Positions 1-7,306 of a stretch of 64,000 bases of DNA are shown piece after piece. The notes beneath the pieces were generated by a model. That model was given only the letters and a program-made list of their open reading frames with translations. It was not told the origin of the DNA and searched no databases. This DNA comes from Devosia neptuniae (lineage in GTDB: Bacteria; Pseudomonadota; Alphaproteobacteria; Rhizobiales; Devosiaceae): assembly GCF_025452235.1 (NCBI RefSeq), contig NZ_CP104965.1, positions 1,980,501 to 2,044,500 of the forward strand, in the 5' to 3' direction. Every line of letters starts with the position of its first letter. Within the stretch, counting starts at the first letter, position 1. The position numbers and the translations under genes are program-made.

Positions 1-1
1 G

Positions 2-61
2 AACGGTGGCCATAACGTGGGTGAATTGCCCCAAGGCAGGAGCGTTTACTCGGGGCGTTGA
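2..61 (+). CDS. Partial small peptide gene, C-terminal end (array member 1)
   Basis: An open frame enters from the left edge and stops with TGA at 59-61. Its last residues, GRSVYSGR, align with the end of the next small gene (GKTFYSGR), and the DNA after the stop is similar too. This makes it the tail of a paralogue whose start and signal peptide lie outside the window. Function unknown. The call depends entirely on the match to the neighbour, since only 19 codons are visible. Confidence 0.5.
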   Translation, partial: NGGHNVGELPQGRSVYSGR

Positions 62-68
62 AGCCAAC

Positions 69-86
69 CCCGGCTCACGGACCGGG
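69..86 (+). other. Hairpin after array member 1
   Basis: CCCGG (69-73) and CCGGG (82-86) can form a 5-bp stem with an 8-nt loop, 7 nt after the stop codon. Similar CCCCG-containing hairpins follow members 2 and 3 at the same distance. There is no T-run, so it may protect or process the transcript rather than end it. Confidence 0.4.
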
Positions 87-134
87 AAATTACCTAGTCG
101 CACCGGGCCTCTGGCCCATTTTAGGAGATGATCC

Positions 135-269
135 ATGAAGTTGATCATGATTGTGGCCACGGCCGTCCTGGCTCTGACCGTCACCGCGCAGGCCGCCGGC
201 ACGCAACGGTCGTCTACAGCTCACACCGGCAATTCAATCCCGGGCAAGACCTTTTACAGCGGGCGCTGA
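135..269 (+). CDS. Tiny exported peptide (array member 2)
   Basis: A 44-residue protein with a clear Sec signal peptide: MKLIM, then a hydrophobic core, then an AQA cleavage site at about residue 20. The predicted mature peptide is about 24 residues, rich in Ser, Thr and Gly, and ends in GKTFYSGR. The ATG is set by a strong Shine-Dalgarno sequence, AGGAGA at 123-128, inside a 13-nt block (CATTTTAGGAGAT, 117-129) repeated exactly before member 3. No cysteines, so it is not a lipoprotein or a disulfide-linked peptide. I do not recognise the family. Tandem paralogues, shared leader DNA and conserved signal peptides argue that it is a real gene. Confidence 0.7.
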   Translation: MKLIMIVATAVLALTVTAQAAGTQRSSTAHTGNSIPGKTFYSGR

Positions 270-277
270 AGATAGTC

Positions 278-298
278 CCCGTTCCCAGCAACAACGGG
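278..298 (+). other. Hairpin after array member 2
   Basis: CCCGTT (278-283) pairs with AACGGG (293-298) around a 9-nt loop, 8 nt after the stop of the peptide gene. It sits in the same place as the hairpins behind members 1 and 3, and its sequence differs while base pairing is kept. Confidence 0.45.
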
Positions 299-324
299 CC
301 CCGGGCTCATTTTAGGAGATAAGA

Positions 325-429
325 ATGAAGACGTTTGTGATCGTGATTGCAGCTGTGCTGGCCCTGACGGCCAGTGTACAGGCTGCTGGTATTAGTAATC
401 CCACAAGCATTGCGCGCGGCCACCGCTAA
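325..429 (+). CDS. Tiny exported peptide (array member 3)
   Basis: A 34-residue protein: MKTFV start, hydrophobic core, SVQA cleavage site near residue 20, then a mature part of only about 14 residues ending RGHR. The signal peptide is similar to that of member 2, and both mature peptides would start Ala-Gly. The Shine-Dalgarno AGGAGA at 314-319 lies in the 13-nt repeat 308-320. The mature part is shorter than that of member 2 and lacks the Tyr-Ser-Gly-Arg end, so it may be a diverged copy. Function unknown. Confidence 0.65.
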   Translation: MKTFVIVIAAVLALTASVQAAGISNPTSIARGHR

Positions 430-436
430 AACTATC

Positions 437-454
437 CCCGGCCCATGGGCCGGG
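437..454 (+). other. Perfect palindrome after array member 3
   Basis: The 18 bases are a perfect inverted repeat (CCCGGCCC-AT-GGGCCGGG) 7 nt after the stop of the third peptide gene. It is the strongest of the three post-gene hairpins and may mark the end of the transcript, though no T-run follows. Confidence 0.5.
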
Positions 455-546
455 AATTCTGCATCACGCGAGCGTGTTGACGTATAGGGAACTCTCTTGG
501 CGTTTGGGCCATTGGTTGGGCGTGATAACGCGCAACAGGTGCCGTC

Positions 547-1080
547 ATGGCCGCCAAGACAATAGCGATCCCCTATGGTTCGGCGCCCGATGTGGATCGG
601 TCCGATGTCCTCGGGCTGGTGCTTAGCGCCGCCCTGCCATTAGCCCTGTTCATCCTCGCCAACGGCATGGCTCATCTGGTCGGTACGCGGCCCATGTTCT
701 TTGCCCCGTTCGGCATGCCGGCAGCGATTGCCGCGGGGCTCCATCTTGGCGCCTTGCCGCTGTTCGGCGCGGCGCGCTGGATGGTCGCCGACAAGGGCCG
801 CGCGGGCCGTGTCGCCGGCCGGTGGGTGGTTGGGCTGATTGCCGGCACGATCGCCTTCCCCTTCCTTGTCGCCCCACTCGATTCCCTCGCCTTGAGCGCC
901 GTGGCCATGGCGCTGCTGATTGTGGGCCTGGCCGCTATCGCCCGCGTCAGCAAGGTCTCGCCCCGCGCGGCGCTGCTGATGGCGCCGGGCCTGGCCTGGA
1001 TGGGCTTTAGCGCGCTGATGGGGCTGAGTTTTCTCAGCGGCTGGTCGCCGCCCTTCGGGCCCACCAACAATCAGAACTGA
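547..1080 (+). CDS. Divergent TspO/MBR-like membrane protein
   Basis: A 177-residue integral membrane protein with about five hydrophobic segments, the size and layout of the TspO/MBR (tryptophan-rich sensory) family. Fragments resembling family motifs are present: a Phe-Ala-Pro-Phe-Gly loop after the first segment, and an APGLAWMGFSALMGLS stretch near the C-terminus that matches the family's Pro-x-x-x-W-x-x-F-A pattern. Most of the family's tryptophans are missing, so this is a distant member at best. TspO proteins bind porphyrins or steroids; nothing here tests that. It stands alone between the peptide array and the DsbA-family gene. Confidence 0.5.
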   Translation: MAAKTIAIPYGSAPDVDRSDVLGLVLSAALPLALFILANGMAHLVGTRPMFFAPFGMPAAIAAGLHLGALPLFGAARWMVADKGRAGRVAGRWVVGLIAGTIAFPFLVAPLDSLALSAVAMALLIVGLAAIARVSKVSPRAALLMAPGLAWMGFSALMGLSFLSGWSPPFGPTNNQN

Positions 1081-1165
1081 GCTAAGTTACCTCGACGTGC
1101 GTTCTTGCAGGCGGGGCGTTTCCGCGCCATGTGATTGGGCAATGTGAATTGGCAAGGATTGCCCG

Positions 1166-1804
1166 ATGTCCAAAATCCTCAAGATCGATGTGTTCACCGA
1201 CGTCGTTTGCCCCTGGTGCCTGGTTGGCTCGGCGCGGCTCGATACGGCGCTGGCGGCACTCCCTGACGATATCGAGGTAGTGGTGGAGAACCATCCCTTC
1301 TATCTCGATCCGAGCGTGCCGCCCGAAGGCGTCGATGTTGGCGAAATGCTGCGCGCCAAATATGGCAAGGACCCGCGCGAGATGTGGGCACGCGTTGAAG
1401 GCGAGGCGGAGAAGGCCGGGATCGAGCTGGATCTGAGCAAGCAACCCCGCATGTTCAACACGGCCAAGGCGCATACCATCACCCGGCTGGCCAAGCCCTT
1501 GGGGATCCAGCATGAGCTGGCCAATGCCATTGCCGGGGCCTATTTCCTCGAGCATCGCCAGATCAATGACGACAATGTGCTGGCCGATATCGCGGTGGCC
1601 TTCGGTTATGACCGGGGCGATGCACTCGACGCCATGAATGACGAGAATGAGTTGGCGATCACCGAACAATTGGCAACCGACGCTGCCCAGCAGGGTATTC
1701 GCGGCGTGCCCTTCTTCATCTTCGGGGAAAAATACGCCCTCTCGGGGGCCCAGCCGGCTGAAGTGTTCGACAAGGCGCTGGCGCAGATCATCGAGGAACT
1801 CTAG
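1166..1804 (+). CDS. DsbA-family (FrnE-like) thiol oxidoreductase
   Basis: A 212-residue thioredoxin-fold protein with the active site Cys15-Pro-Trp-Cys18 right after the first beta strand, an inserted helical domain, and the cis-proline segment RGVPFFIF near residue 180. The CPWC motif and length fit the FrnE branch of the DsbA family (2-hydroxychromene-2-carboxylate isomerase/DsbA-like, PF01323). There is no signal peptide, so it is probably cytoplasmic and acts on thiols there. ATG follows a weak AAGGA at 1153-1157. Confidence 0.85.
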   Translation: MSKILKIDVFTDVVCPWCLVGSARLDTALAALPDDIEVVVENHPFYLDPSVPPEGVDVGEMLRAKYGKDPREMWARVEGEAEKAGIELDLSKQPRMFNTAKAHTITRLAKPLGIQHELANAIAGAYFLEHRQINDDNVLADIAVAFGYDRGDALDAMNDENELAITEQLATDAAQQGIRGVPFFIFGEKYALSGAQPAEVFDKALAQIIEEL

Positions 1805-1857
1805 ACGGATGGGAAAACCGCATTAGTGTGGTTGTCCCGACTCTCTGAGGCTCTCCC

Positions 1858-2676
1858 ATGAAGCTGTTGCGCCGCATCGTCCTTGCTGTGCTGATCGTTG
1901 TCGTCGTGCTCTACGCGGCGGTGGTCATCTACATGTATGTCAACCAGCGTGCGCTGCAGTACGATCCCAGCGGAGACGTGGTGGCGCTGGGCGATACGGC
2001 TTTGCCGCAGGCCAGGGAAGTCGCCATTCCCTCGGGCGATGGCGTGGTCAATGGCTGGTATCAGGCCCCACAGGCCGGCAAGCCTCTCATCATCTATTAC
2101 AAGGGCAATGCTGGCAGCTTCTCCTCCGAGCATGAGCGCTTCGAGCGCTGGGTCGCCGATGGCTACGGGTTCTTGTCCTTTGATTATCGCGGCTTCCCGC
2201 TCTCGCCCGGCACGATCAGCCAGGACAATATTCTTGAGGATGCCCTGGCTGCGTTTGATTGGGCGCAGGCGCAGGGCGCGCCCATCGTCATCTGGGGCCG
2301 CTCGATCGGCACTGGTCCGGCCACCTATGTTGCGAGCGAACGTGCCGCCAATGCGCTGCTGCTCGAAACCCCGTTCTATTCGGCTGTCAACGTGGCCGCC
2401 GAGCGCTATCCCATCCTGCCGGTCTATTGGGTGATGCAGGACCAATTCCCGGTCAATGACTGGATCGCCAAGGTCGATGAGCCCGTGCTGGTGGCCCATG
2501 GTACGGCCGACCAGACTATTGGCGTTTCCAATGGCGAGCGCGTCTATGCCCTGGCCAAGAACAAGGACGAGCTGTGGATCGAGCCCGGCGCGGACCACAA
2601 TGATCTGTGGAAACTCAACATCTGGAGCCATGCCGAGCCGTTTTTCGAGCGCGCCGAAGCTGCGGCGGGGCATTGA
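1858..2676 (+). CDS. Membrane-anchored alpha/beta hydrolase (BEM46/ABHD13-like)
   Basis: The 272-residue protein starts with one membrane anchor (about residues 5-28), followed by an alpha/beta hydrolase domain. The nucleophile elbow is GRSIGTG, the acid lies in the strand VLVAHGTADQ, and the catalytic His is in GADHNDLW. This arrangement and the short lid match the BEM46/ABHD13/YfhR group. The substrate is unknown; an esterase or thioesterase role facing the periplasm is likely. It is downstream of the DsbA-family gene on the same strand, 53 nt away. Confidence 0.85.
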   Translation: MKLLRRIVLAVLIVVVVLYAAVVIYMYVNQRALQYDPSGDVVALGDTALPQAREVAIPSGDGVVNGWYQAPQAGKPLIIYYKGNAGSFSSEHERFERWVADGYGFLSFDYRGFPLSPGTISQDNILEDALAAFDWAQAQGAPIVIWGRSIGTGPATYVASERAANALLLETPFYSAVNVAAERYPILPVYWVMQDQFPVNDWIAKVDEPVLVAHGTADQTIGVSNGERVYALAKNKDELWIEPGADHNDLWKLNIWSHAEPFFERAEAAAGH

Positions 2677-2758
2677 TCCCATGCAAATGTGGCTTGACCT
2701 TCCCATGGGATAGGGCTGCCGTTCACGCCTCTCTTTTAGGCCCTCGCGGAACAATAGT

Positions 2759-3988
2759 ATGACATCGCCCTCCACCAGCCAGCCCATGAGTGCGCGGCGC
2801 ACCGCCATCATCGGGGGGCTGATGGTGGCCGCGGGGCCGCTCAGCATCACGCTTTATGCGCCGGCTTTGCCAACTATGGTCGCCGACCTCATGACCACCG
2901 AGGCAATGGGCAAGCTGACCCTCTCGGTCTATTTCGGCGCCTTCGCCCTGGCGCAGCTGGTCTGCGGCCCGCTTTCCGACCGTTTCGGGCGCAAGCCTGT
3001 CGCCATGGCGTTTTTTGCCCTTTACGTGCTGGGTAGCTTTGCCGCCGCGCTGGCTCCGAGCATCGAAATGCTGCTGCTGGGCCGGGCCCTGCAAGGGGTG
3101 GGCGTATCGGCCGGCGTCGCCCTGTCGCGCGCCATGGTGCGCGATCAATTCGTGGGTTCGGAATCGATCCGCATCCTCACCCTGATCAATCTGATCCTCA
3201 CCGTCGCCCCTGCCGTGGCGCCGACCCTGGGCAGCGTGCTGCTGCTGGCCGGCAGCTGGCATCTGCTCTTTGTAGTCATGGCTGGGTTCGGCATGGCCAT
3301 CATCGCCATGCTGGCCTGGGGTGCGCGGGAGACCCAGCCCGTGGCCGCGCAGACCCCGCTCAAGCCCAGCCGTATTCTCGCCAATTACGGGCGCCTGCTG
3401 GCCTCCGCCCAGTTCATGGCCCCCGCGCTGCTGCTGGCCATCGCCTTTGGTGGCTTTTACGGATTTTCGGCGCTGCTGCCCTTCGTGTTGCTCGACGATC
3501 TGGGGCTCACCACGTTCCAATTCGCCATGACCATGCTGATCCAGACCGGCTCGTTCATCACCGGCAATCTGGTGGCCGGGCAGGTGGCCCGCCGCGCCTC
3601 GGGGCTGCAGATGGTGCGGATTGGCCTGGTGCTCCTCGTGCTGGCCGGGCTGGGCTTTGCCATCGGCCCGCGCCTTTTCCCCGACTCGCTGTTTGCCGTG
3701 ATGATCCCGGTGGGGCTCTGGATGCTGGCTTTGGCCTTTATCGGCCCTAGCACCACGGCCGCCGCCATGGCCGGCTTCGGCACCATTGCCGGCGCCGCTG
3801 GCGCGCTCACTGGGGTGTTCCAGGTAGGTGGCGGCTTTATCGGTTCGACGCTGGCCAGCGTGCTCTTCCCCGATGCGCGCAGCGCCATCGTAACGCTGCT
3901 GCCGATCATGGCGGGTCTCGCCGTCCTCGCCGCCCTCTGGCGCCGCATCTCCGCAAGGCCAGTGGCTGAAGCGCCGCCGGAGACCTGA
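2759..3988 (+). CDS. Bcr/CflA-family MFS multidrug exporter
   Basis: A 409-residue protein with twelve predicted membrane helices. The loop between helices 2 and 3 carries the MFS signature GPLSDRFGRKPV, and the next helices show the LGRALQGVG motif and the RAMVRDQ stretch seen in Bcr/CflA drug:proton antiporters (TIGR00710). It lies in the inner membrane and likely exports small hydrophobic compounds. The start ATG at 2759 precedes a short Ser/Thr-rich N-terminus. It appears to be a single-gene unit. Confidence 0.88.
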   Translation: MTSPSTSQPMSARRTAIIGGLMVAAGPLSITLYAPALPTMVADLMTTEAMGKLTLSVYFGAFALAQLVCGPLSDRFGRKPVAMAFFALYVLGSFAAALAPSIEMLLLGRALQGVGVSAGVALSRAMVRDQFVGSESIRILTLINLILTVAPAVAPTLGSVLLLAGSWHLLFVVMAGFGMAIIAMLAWGARETQPVAAQTPLKPSRILANYGRLLASAQFMAPALLLAIAFGGFYGFSALLPFVLLDDLGLTTFQFAMTMLIQTGSFITGNLVAGQVARRASGLQMVRIGLVLLVLAGLGFAIGPRLFPDSLFAVMIPVGLWMLALAFIGPSTTAAAMAGFGTIAGAAGALTGVFQVGGGFIGSTLASVLFPDARSAIVTLLPIMAGLAVLAALWRRISARPVAEAPPET

Positions 3989-5430: not shown

Positions 5431-6516
5431 CTACCCCCGCACAATCCTGTTCACATGCCCCATCTTCCGCCCCGGTCGGATGTCCGTCTTGCCGTACAAA
5501 TGCGGCTGCGTATTCCCATCGATCCCGCCGGGCACGATGTTCACTTCGTCGCCGACGAGGTTTTCCATCACAACATCGGCCAGGCGCGCCGGGTCGCCCA
5601 GCGGCCAGCCCAGGATCGCCCGGATGTGCTGCTCGAACTGGTCGGTGAGGCACACAGCCTCCGTCCAGTGCCCCGAATTGTGTACGCGCGGGGCAATCTC
5701 ATTGACCATCAGCGTGGGCCGCTCGCCCGGCACGACGAAGAACTCGACCCCGAGCACGCCGACATAGTCGAGCGCCACCACGATCACCTTGGCCAGCATG
5801 GCGGCGTGCTTTTCCAGCCCCGGCGCAATGTCGGCCGGCACGGTGCTGGTGAACAGAATATGATGGCGGTGCACATTTTCGGCGGCGTCGAAGCTTCTGA
5901 CTTCGCCGCCCAGATTGCGCGCCACGACCACCGAGATTTCCTTCTCGAAGGGCACGAAGGCTTCGAGCACCAGCGGCTTGGGCTCGAGCGCGGCAAAAGC
6001 CTCTGCGGCCTCGCCCCGTTCGCGGATGACCCGCTGCCCCTTGCCGTCATAGCCCAGCCGGGTGGTCTTGAGCACGGCGGGCAGGCCCAGTGCGTCGATT
6101 GCGGCTTCGAGCCCCGCCAGCGTCTCGACAGCGCGATGCGGCGCCACGGGAATATTCTTGCTGGCCAGAAAGCCCTTTTCTGCCAGCCGGTCCTGCGAGA
6201 TGGCCAATGCTTTGGCGCCGGGCCGCAACGGCTTGCGCGCGGCGAGGAATTCGGCGGTGGCGGCCGGCACATTCTCGAATTCATAGGTGATGACGTCGAC
6301 CGCATCGGCAAAGGCGGCCAGTGCCACTTCGTCGTCATAGGCGGCCACTGTCTTGTGCGGGGTCACCTCGAAAGCGGGGCTATTGGCATCGGGGCAATAG
6401 ATATGGGTGCGCATGCCCAATTTGCTGGCTGCCAGCGAGAGCATGCGGCCCAGTTGCCCGCCCCCCAGAATACCGATCATGCTGCCGGGAGGGAGGGCTG
6501 AGAGGTCAGGGGCCAC
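5431..6516 (-). CDS. purK: 5-(carboxyamino)imidazole ribonucleotide synthase
   Basis: PurK uses ATP and bicarbonate to convert AIR to N5-CAIR in purine synthesis. The protein (361 residues from a GTG at 6516) opens with GILGGGQLGRML, the family's signature, and has the ATP-grasp elements KTTRLGYDGKGQ, VLEAFVPFEKEISV and NEIAPRVHNSGHWT. I chose the GTG start because it lies 4 nt after the purE stop and gives the expected short leader; an ATG twelve codons later is possible. It is cotranscribed with purE. Confidence 0.95.
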   Translation of the reverse strand: MAPDLSALPPGSMIGILGGGQLGRMLSLAASKLGMRTHIYCPDANSPAFEVTPHKTVAAYDDEVALAAFADAVDVITYEFENVPAATAEFLAARKPLRPGAKALAISQDRLAEKGFLASKNIPVAPHRAVETLAGLEAAIDALGLPAVLKTTRLGYDGKGQRVIRERGEAAEAFAALEPKPLVLEAFVPFEKEISVVVARNLGGEVRSFDAAENVHRHHILFTSTVPADIAPGLEKHAAMLAKVIVVALDYVGVLGVEFFVVPGERPTLMVNEIAPRVHNSGHWTEAVCLTDQFEQHIRAILGWPLGDPARLADVVMENLVGDEVNIVPGGIDGNTQPHLYGKTDIRPGRKMGHVNRIVRG

Positions 6517-6520
6517 GAAA

Positions 6521-7042
6521 TTACTCGGTGTCGGAGGGGAAAAGGGGCACGCGGGCGCTTTGCTGAGCCCGATAATGGTCGAGCCGGTCGGCCAGGTCTT
6601 CATCGGACAAAGCCAGGACGGCAGCGGCCAGCAGCGCCGCATTGATGGCGCCGGGCTCGCCAATAGCCAGCGTGCCCACCGGAATGCCACCGGGCATCTG
6701 CACGATGGAGAGCAGACTATCCTGCCCGTTCAGCGCCTTGGACTTGACCGGCACGCCAAACACCGGCAGTGGCGTCATGGCCGCGATCATGCCGGGAAGA
6801 TGGGCCGACCCACCGGCGCCGGCGATGATGATCTTGAACCCTTCGGCGCGGGCATTGGTGGCAAATTCCACCATGCGCTCGGGCGTGCGATGCGCCGAGA
6901 CGATGCGCGCCTCATATTCGATTTCGAGGGTTTCGAGGGTTTCGGCGGCAAGCCGCATGGTGGGCCAGTCGGACTGGCTGCCCATGACGATGGCAACGGA
7001 AGGCTTGGTGAGCAAAGGCCTGATCCCTATCGGTCGTTGCAA
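6521..7042 (-). CDS. purE: 5-(carboxyamino)imidazole ribonucleotide mutase
   Basis: Class I PurE moves the carboxyl group of N5-CAIR to give CAIR, the step after PurK. The 173-residue protein carries MGSQSDWPT, the SAHRTPERM loop and [12 protein letters not shown], all of which line the active site of the octameric enzyme. The C-terminal [14 protein letters not shown] is longer than usual but ordinary. The start at 7042 adds a few residues before the conserved [10 protein letters not shown] strand, so the true start may be slightly downstream. Operon: DUF465 gene, purE, purK. Confidence 0.95.
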
Positions 7043-7090
7043 AACGGGGAATTAGCCCAATTGCCGCCACAAAACAAGCGCGGCGAAGCC

Positions 7091-7306
7091 TCAGGCGATG
7101 ATGTCGGGCAGCAAAATATTCTCGAGCTGGACGATGCGATCTTTCAGCGCCAGCTTGCGCTTTTTGAGGCGCTGCAACAGCATCCGATCGGCCACATGGG
7201 ATTGGGTCAGCGTATCGATCGCCGCATTGAGATCGGAGTGTTCCTGGCGTTTTGTGGCCAGCTCCAGCCCAAGATTGGCTTCCTGCTCTCTGGTTAATGG
7301 CAACAT
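7091..7306 (-). CDS. DUF465-family (YdcH-like) small helical protein
   Basis: A 71-residue, all-helical charged protein. The C-terminal RLKKRKLALKDRIVQLE stretch matches the DUF465/YdcH family (PF04325), small coiled coils of unknown function. The ATG at 7306 follows GGGGAAG; a longer reading from an upstream TTG is possible. It is the first gene of a likely operon with purE and purK, and faces a second DUF465 gene across a 154-nt divergent promoter region. Confidence 0.75.
   Translation of the reverse strand: MLPLTREQEANLGLELATKRQEHSDLNAAIDTLTQSHVADRMLLQRLKKRKLALKDRIVQLENILLPDIIA

Follow-up and report, generated by a model that had tools for sequence, protein, structure and literature searches.

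A putative set of secreted peptides, jointly switched as the output of a conserved two-component system in Devosia and its relatives

Hybrid sensor kinases of the NahK/ErcS type (NCBIfam NF041832 and NF041831) join a kinase core to a receiver and usually have partner regulators of the LuxR type. Two-component systems are also tied to small envelope proteins, FeuN to FeuPQ and MgrB to PhoPQ, both being single proteins that go with OmpR-type regulators. In Gram-positive bacteria, the gene of an Agr or Com type autoinducer lies beside a polytopic kinase and under the control of its regulator, and the peptide leaves the cell by a dedicated exporter after processing or cyclisation. In Vibrio cholerae, according to a report on the DbfQRS system (PMC12714742), a small Sec-exported protein is encoded beside a two-component system; this protein, DbfQ, has a PepSY domain and binds the periplasmic sensor domain. 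We find in Devosia a module in which small peptide genes stand in tandem beside a hybrid kinase and a response regulator, and the array is probably the secreted-peptide output of this local system. The best reading of the locus and its relatives is an undescribed set of secreted peptides, switched jointly as the output of one conserved two-component system; the titles and abstract openings in the literature searched hold no description of the module, the operator or the peptide set.

The window, a stretch of 64,000 nucleotides from Devosia neptuniae, opens within the array. A sequence-only reading of the window had proposed a partial unit followed by two small genes in tandem, and the lengths, Sec signal peptides and AQA/VQA junctions that it gave are all correct. 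The array is genuine, the genome yielding three whole units of 44, 44 and 34 aa, each with a Sec signal and a short mature peptide. Unit 1, of which the window holds only the tail (1..61, + strand), starts 73 nt left of the window edge and is whole in the genome (L034:7927-8061, 44 aa; window position 1 is L034:8001). Unit 2 lies at 135..269 (+, 44 aa) and unit 3 at 325..429 (+, 34 aa). Reading the genome leftwards, as had been advised, uncovers no fourth unit between the array and the upstream kinase gene, and the array therefore comprises three. All three signals have a basic n-region, a hydrophobic core and a junction near A-x-A, judged by eye and by a simple hydropathy and A-x-A rule, and the mature parts open with AG. 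The described ending G-[KR]-x-[FV]-Y-S-G-R is present in unit 1 (GRSVYSGR) and unit 2 (GKTFYSGR) and missing from unit 3. An identical 13-nt block, CATTTTAGGAGAT, holds the ribosome sites of unit 2 (117..129, +) and unit 3 (308..320, +), again as described.

The frames look coding, as judged from codon differences between G000 and the same-species genome G067, which favour coding over random change: unit 2 has three synonymous and no nonsynonymous differences, unit 1 has five of each, and third positions account for 10 of the 14 bases altered in these two units. G067 likewise has three units, the third being frame-changed just past its start codon. Given this frame change and the missing C-terminal motif, unit 3 may be in decay. 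Unit number varies among the other carriers, with one in Devosia sp. A8/3-2 (G053) and two in G074. A hairpin had been claimed after each gene, and this holds for unit 3 only, where the terminator-like CCCGGCC-CATG-GGCCGGG (437..454, +) folds with z -2.9; a hairpin of the same type recurs in G053 (z -3.1) and behind both G074 units (z -2.7 and -2.6). Behind units 1 and 2 the spacers show no folding beyond that of shuffled sequence (z -0.2 and +0.7). The peptides of the window belong to no named family, as had been supposed: nothing exceeds the curated cut-off in Pfam and NCBIfam gives no match. Among all the peptides scanned, the small secreted family DUF4148 reaches at most 14.9 bits against a gathering score of 27, and Pfam detects no PepSY domain. 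A search of window positions 1-3000 against Rfam, at E up to 1, returns 0 matches. The array is followed on its right by a TspO/MBR-like gene (547-1080), which scores 29.2 bits for Pfam PF03073, where the cut-off is 24, and has matches in 67 of 75 genus genomes, and then by a DsbA-like gene (1166-1804).

The sequence-only reading was confined to the window, and the left flank holds the most informative parts. The array stands at the end of a 3.8-kb module consisting of a LysE-type exporter (L034:4620-5243, -) with an operator before it (L034:5309-5326), a LuxR/NarL-type response regulator (L034:5398-6018, -), a hybrid sensor kinase (L034:6036-7766, +), a second operator (L034:7792-7809) and the peptides. 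By hydropathy alone the kinase begins with six hydrophobic segments, after which come HisKA, HATPase and receiver domains. The NF041832 model matches residues 216-572 (E 7e-96), so that the kinase-plus-receiver core is shared with NahK/ErcS, but the 321.4 bits lie below the family cut-off of 400. For the six-helix sensor domain (L034:6063-6674) there is no match among PDB chains nor, above cut-off, among Pfam families. In an alignment of 15 sequences the sensor domain is 44-99% identical to the first. Unlike DbfQ, peptides of the Devosia type are short, lack a Pfam domain, are arrayed and carry the system's own operator; unlike FeuN and MgrB they form tandem peptides that share a C-terminal motif. 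The placement of peptide genes beside a polytopic kinase recalls the Agr and Com type, whereas the peptides here have ordinary Sec signals, and the module shows no gene dedicated to their processing.

The distribution of the peptides within Devosia follows that of the kinase. The earlier reading expected homologues in related genomes, and clear ones are found in 4 of 75 genus genomes, exactly the four that carry the N-terminal part of the kinase, which is itself confined to 4 of 136 family genomes. A further 41 genus genomes gave only weak peptide matches (tblastn, E up to 1), taken as unrelated on the strength of 22 such loci. Among 24 unit 2 loci that were inspected, a set that excludes L026, L030, L032, L033 and the weak matches without a locus, two are real (L006 and L007); the 22 others were dropped, being either the signal peptides of longer proteins or frames with no relation to the peptides. 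A kinase search of genome contigs gave six loci, of which L108 (G067) and L109 (G053) are real and four generic kinases were dropped. In the close relative G035 the flanking SARP-type regulator gene runs straight into the TspO-like gene; the whole block is missing, spanning about L034:4648-8462 by blastn of the junctions, and the kinase is not found in the G035 genome. In a FastTree analysis of flanking proteins, G035 groups with G053 (support 0.68) and G074 falls outside the other carriers. Given this placement, the simplest reading, with modest support, is that G035 lost the entire block. In Devosia sp. A8/3-2 the TspO-like and alpha/beta-hydrolase genes, with others nearby, match in two frames (L036:5069-5573 and 6464-7175), which may reflect an assembly error or decay.

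Comparison of the regions upstream of the peptides yields CGAAATACGGCATCGGTCGTATC, and an 18-bp palindrome, ATACGNC-N4-GNCGTAT, precedes both the peptides and lysE. The four Devosia genomes contain nine exact copies (2, 2, 2 and 3), every one inside the module; G074 has a separate operator before each of its two units and one before lysE. In three of the four genomes one-mismatch copies are no more numerous than those of the reversed control, and a variant with the spacer lengthened by one has 0 copies in the four. In the order sample of 397 genomes, seven have a strong kinase match, and the near-exact operator occurs in five genomes, always within the locus of a strong kinase match; the reversed control gives three matches, none from a genome on the list of kinase matches. 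In the family of G390, presumably Rhizobiaceae, a loose form of the pattern is found exactly in 54 of 394 genomes (106 matches, hand count); the reversed control, likewise counted by hand, has about 124 matches spread over about 108 genomes. As the loose pattern is no commoner than its control, its number alone proves nothing. A single genome holds up to eight copies of it and at most four of the control, and the argument rests on this per-genome maximum, on the core and on the neighbours.

The position of the operator is that of a cis site at promoter distance, common to the peptides and to other targets of the predicted system. CTAG stands exactly 21 nt after the peptide operator at all five Devosia sites, which include two from near-identical same-species genomes, and also in G335, a genome of another family. 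At 55 oriented sites (61 minus two from G067 and four classed as other), TA occurs at offset 21-23 in 43 on the side toward the gene and in 14 on the side away from it, and at offset 22 in 30. By target, TA at 21-23 is present at 21/21 lysE sites, 5/5 subtilase sites, 6/8 other surface sites and 11/21 peptide sites, so that the -10 box is weaker before peptides than before lysE. With its TA spacing the operator resembles the site of an activator placed ahead of a -10 box, and would fit activation rather than repression. A 7-2-7 palindrome is usual for NarL-type regulators; from this, and from the co-occurrence of regulator and operator, we infer that the regulator reads the operator.

What else stands behind this operator in other families? 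In G335 the order is LysE, regulator, kinase and operator, followed by a 54-aa Sec peptide that ends in ARGFYYR; the lysE operator there has one mismatch. We fetched 68 loci among the matches listed, 13 from G390, G374 and G417 and 55 more, which hold 50 sites with the strict core ATACGNCANNTGNCGTAT, a core chosen after inspection, and 19 loose-only sites, four loci having a one-mismatch site only. Classed by hand, the 50 strict sites precede a LysE-type exporter in 13 cases (tblastn), a tiny Sec peptide in 14, a subtilase-like protein in five and other surface or secreted proteins in eight. The remaining 10, unassigned or other, lack a target of the peptide, lysE or surface kinds and count against a joint output. 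The 14 peptide sites are 13 found by a script rule, whose filter was written after examples had been seen, plus a 111-aa precursor in G839. Pfam, run on one representative each, matched subtilase S8, the Ig-like Big_9, Collar, M81 and LysE and gave no match for the barrel-like L208 protein; labels beyond these representatives are our own reading. Secreted subtilase-like proteins begin behind the operator in L166, L228, L234, L240 and L243, one of which matches S8, and such a protein is a possible processing protease. In L168 (G390) and L174 (G374) a non-secreted protein of 57-59 aa (MRMLTENQR...) lies 66 nt behind the operator; its G390 copy has no Pfam match.

It could be argued that outside Devosia the link between operator and peptides is due to chance, since short Sec-like open reading frames are common and were found by searching beside a pattern. 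The sites were indeed picked by means of the pattern, the reversed control is equally common and the filter followed the examples. The script rule, however, finds a peptide at 13 of the 50 strict sites, against 61 of 14231 random positions more than 400 nt from an operator in the same loci (0.4%) and 1 of 19 loose-only sites; one of the four one-mismatch loci (L173) also has one. Pairs of tandem peptides, each with its own operator, occur in G074, G706 and G801, and within the same fetched stretch the 13 lysE sites are accompanied by the regulator in 11 cases and the kinase in 10. We thus regard a chance association as very improbable.

The kinase is carried by 11 plasmid records, of which six were fetched. 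The E. canadensis (L143) and Cupriavidus (L145) plasmids have no operator, LysE or full regulator match beside the kinase, and at three Ensifer plasmid loci no peptide follows it. Two Rhizobiaceae peptides searched against the plasmids by tblastn gave no match. An operator-linked peptide in G715 (L230) weakens the view, drawn from the Ensifer loci, that the kinase never needs peptides. A second kinase branch (L119 in G335 and L120 in G417, sensor-part identity 46% and 45%) lies beside a chemoreceptor-like gene and has no operator in the fetched stretch.

Operator-linked Sec peptides are found in 14 genomes. In a set of 23 sequences from 13 genomes, from which G067 was omitted as near-identical, 18 have G-[KR]-x(0-3)-[FYWIM] within the last 12 residues, a motif picked post hoc after inspection; over 2000 shuffles of the mature residues the count averages 1.5 and peaks at 7. 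Signal and C-terminus are kept, whereas the mature parts vary among strains and paralogues, above all in the middle, where many Rhizobiaceae members carry an extra block like ILAAGPxRT. The net charge of the mature part is +2 to +8, and its length is about 14-25 residues in Devosia and greater in other families. Beyond signal and C-terminus, Devosia and Rhizobiaceae peptides do not align with confidence; we therefore claim shared regulation and form, common descent being unproven. The G839 precursor (L216), encoded some 130-470 nt to the right of the operator at 1504, has a mature part with apparently two repeats, AGPGRTG...PPGKAMFG and AGPSKPG...PSGKSARG, and looks as if it could yield two peptides.

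Variation of this kind, with signal and C-terminus kept, would also fit a role of the peptides as ligands of the adjacent kinase, in which they would be exported, perceived by the six-helix domain and, by way of the shared operator, made in a feedback loop, be it autoinducing or damping. Peptide genes adjoin the kinase in Devosia and G335 and the regulator in G765, they carry the system's own operator, and small periplasmic proteins that bind a kinase are known, DbfQ being one (PMC12714742). A peptide gene does not, however, go with every kinase: in eight genomes for which every exact operator site was inspected (G460, G363, G374, G758, G844, G656, G661 and G576), kinase or regulator is present and our filters find no operator-linked peptide, which speaks against an obligate ligand. 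The three Ensifer plasmid loci again count against it, and peptides often lie unlinked to the kinase, which would be awkward for a ligand. A ligand role is possible but less likely than not. Somewhat more doubtful is a fuller version, according to which Gram-negative Hyphomicrobiales would use Sec-exported linear peptide signals with a fixed C-terminal G-[KR]-x-aromatic motif, a variable middle, LuxR/NarL-type control, strain-specific alleles, a new six-helix sensor and, perhaps, trimming by the co-regulated subtilase.

Being small, mildly basic, variable and in tandem beside an exporter, the peptides might instead be bacteriocin-like agents of competition, the exporter or the kinase giving tolerance or sensing envelope damage. 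LysE-type exporters, however, move amino acids and are not known to move peptides, the module shows neither an immunity gene nor a dedicated peptide exporter, and the Devosia mature parts are short and, by eye, not strongly amphipathic. We consider a competition peptide improbable.

We return to the array as output of the two-component system. In the proposed mechanism the LuxR/NarL-type regulator would be under the control of the hybrid kinase, a membrane protein that has a NahK/ErcS-like core and six helices at its N-terminus. Bound to ATACGNC-N4-GNCGTAT, which stands 21 nt ahead of a -10-like CTA box, the regulator would switch on both the exporter of the LysE type and the Sec peptides. Signal peptidase would then free the mildly basic peptides, most of them with the C-terminal G-[KR]-x-aromatic motif, and their site of action would be the periplasm, the cell surface or the exterior. 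Given that subtilase, adhesin-like and outer-membrane-like genes stand behind the same operator in relatives, a role as surface or secreted agent seems somewhat more likely than that of a kinase ligand, and we would place a feedback ligand second and a competition peptide third.

If true, this model would use the operator to delimit a two-component regulon not characterised before, with genes that usual annotation misses for their small size among its main targets. Searches for such peptides across Hyphomicrobiales could start from the 18-bp site and its -10 box at a fixed distance. The model would likewise make testable the idea that linear peptides exported by the Sec route serve Gram-negative soil bacteria as signals or surface agents, with a dedicated sensor in control.
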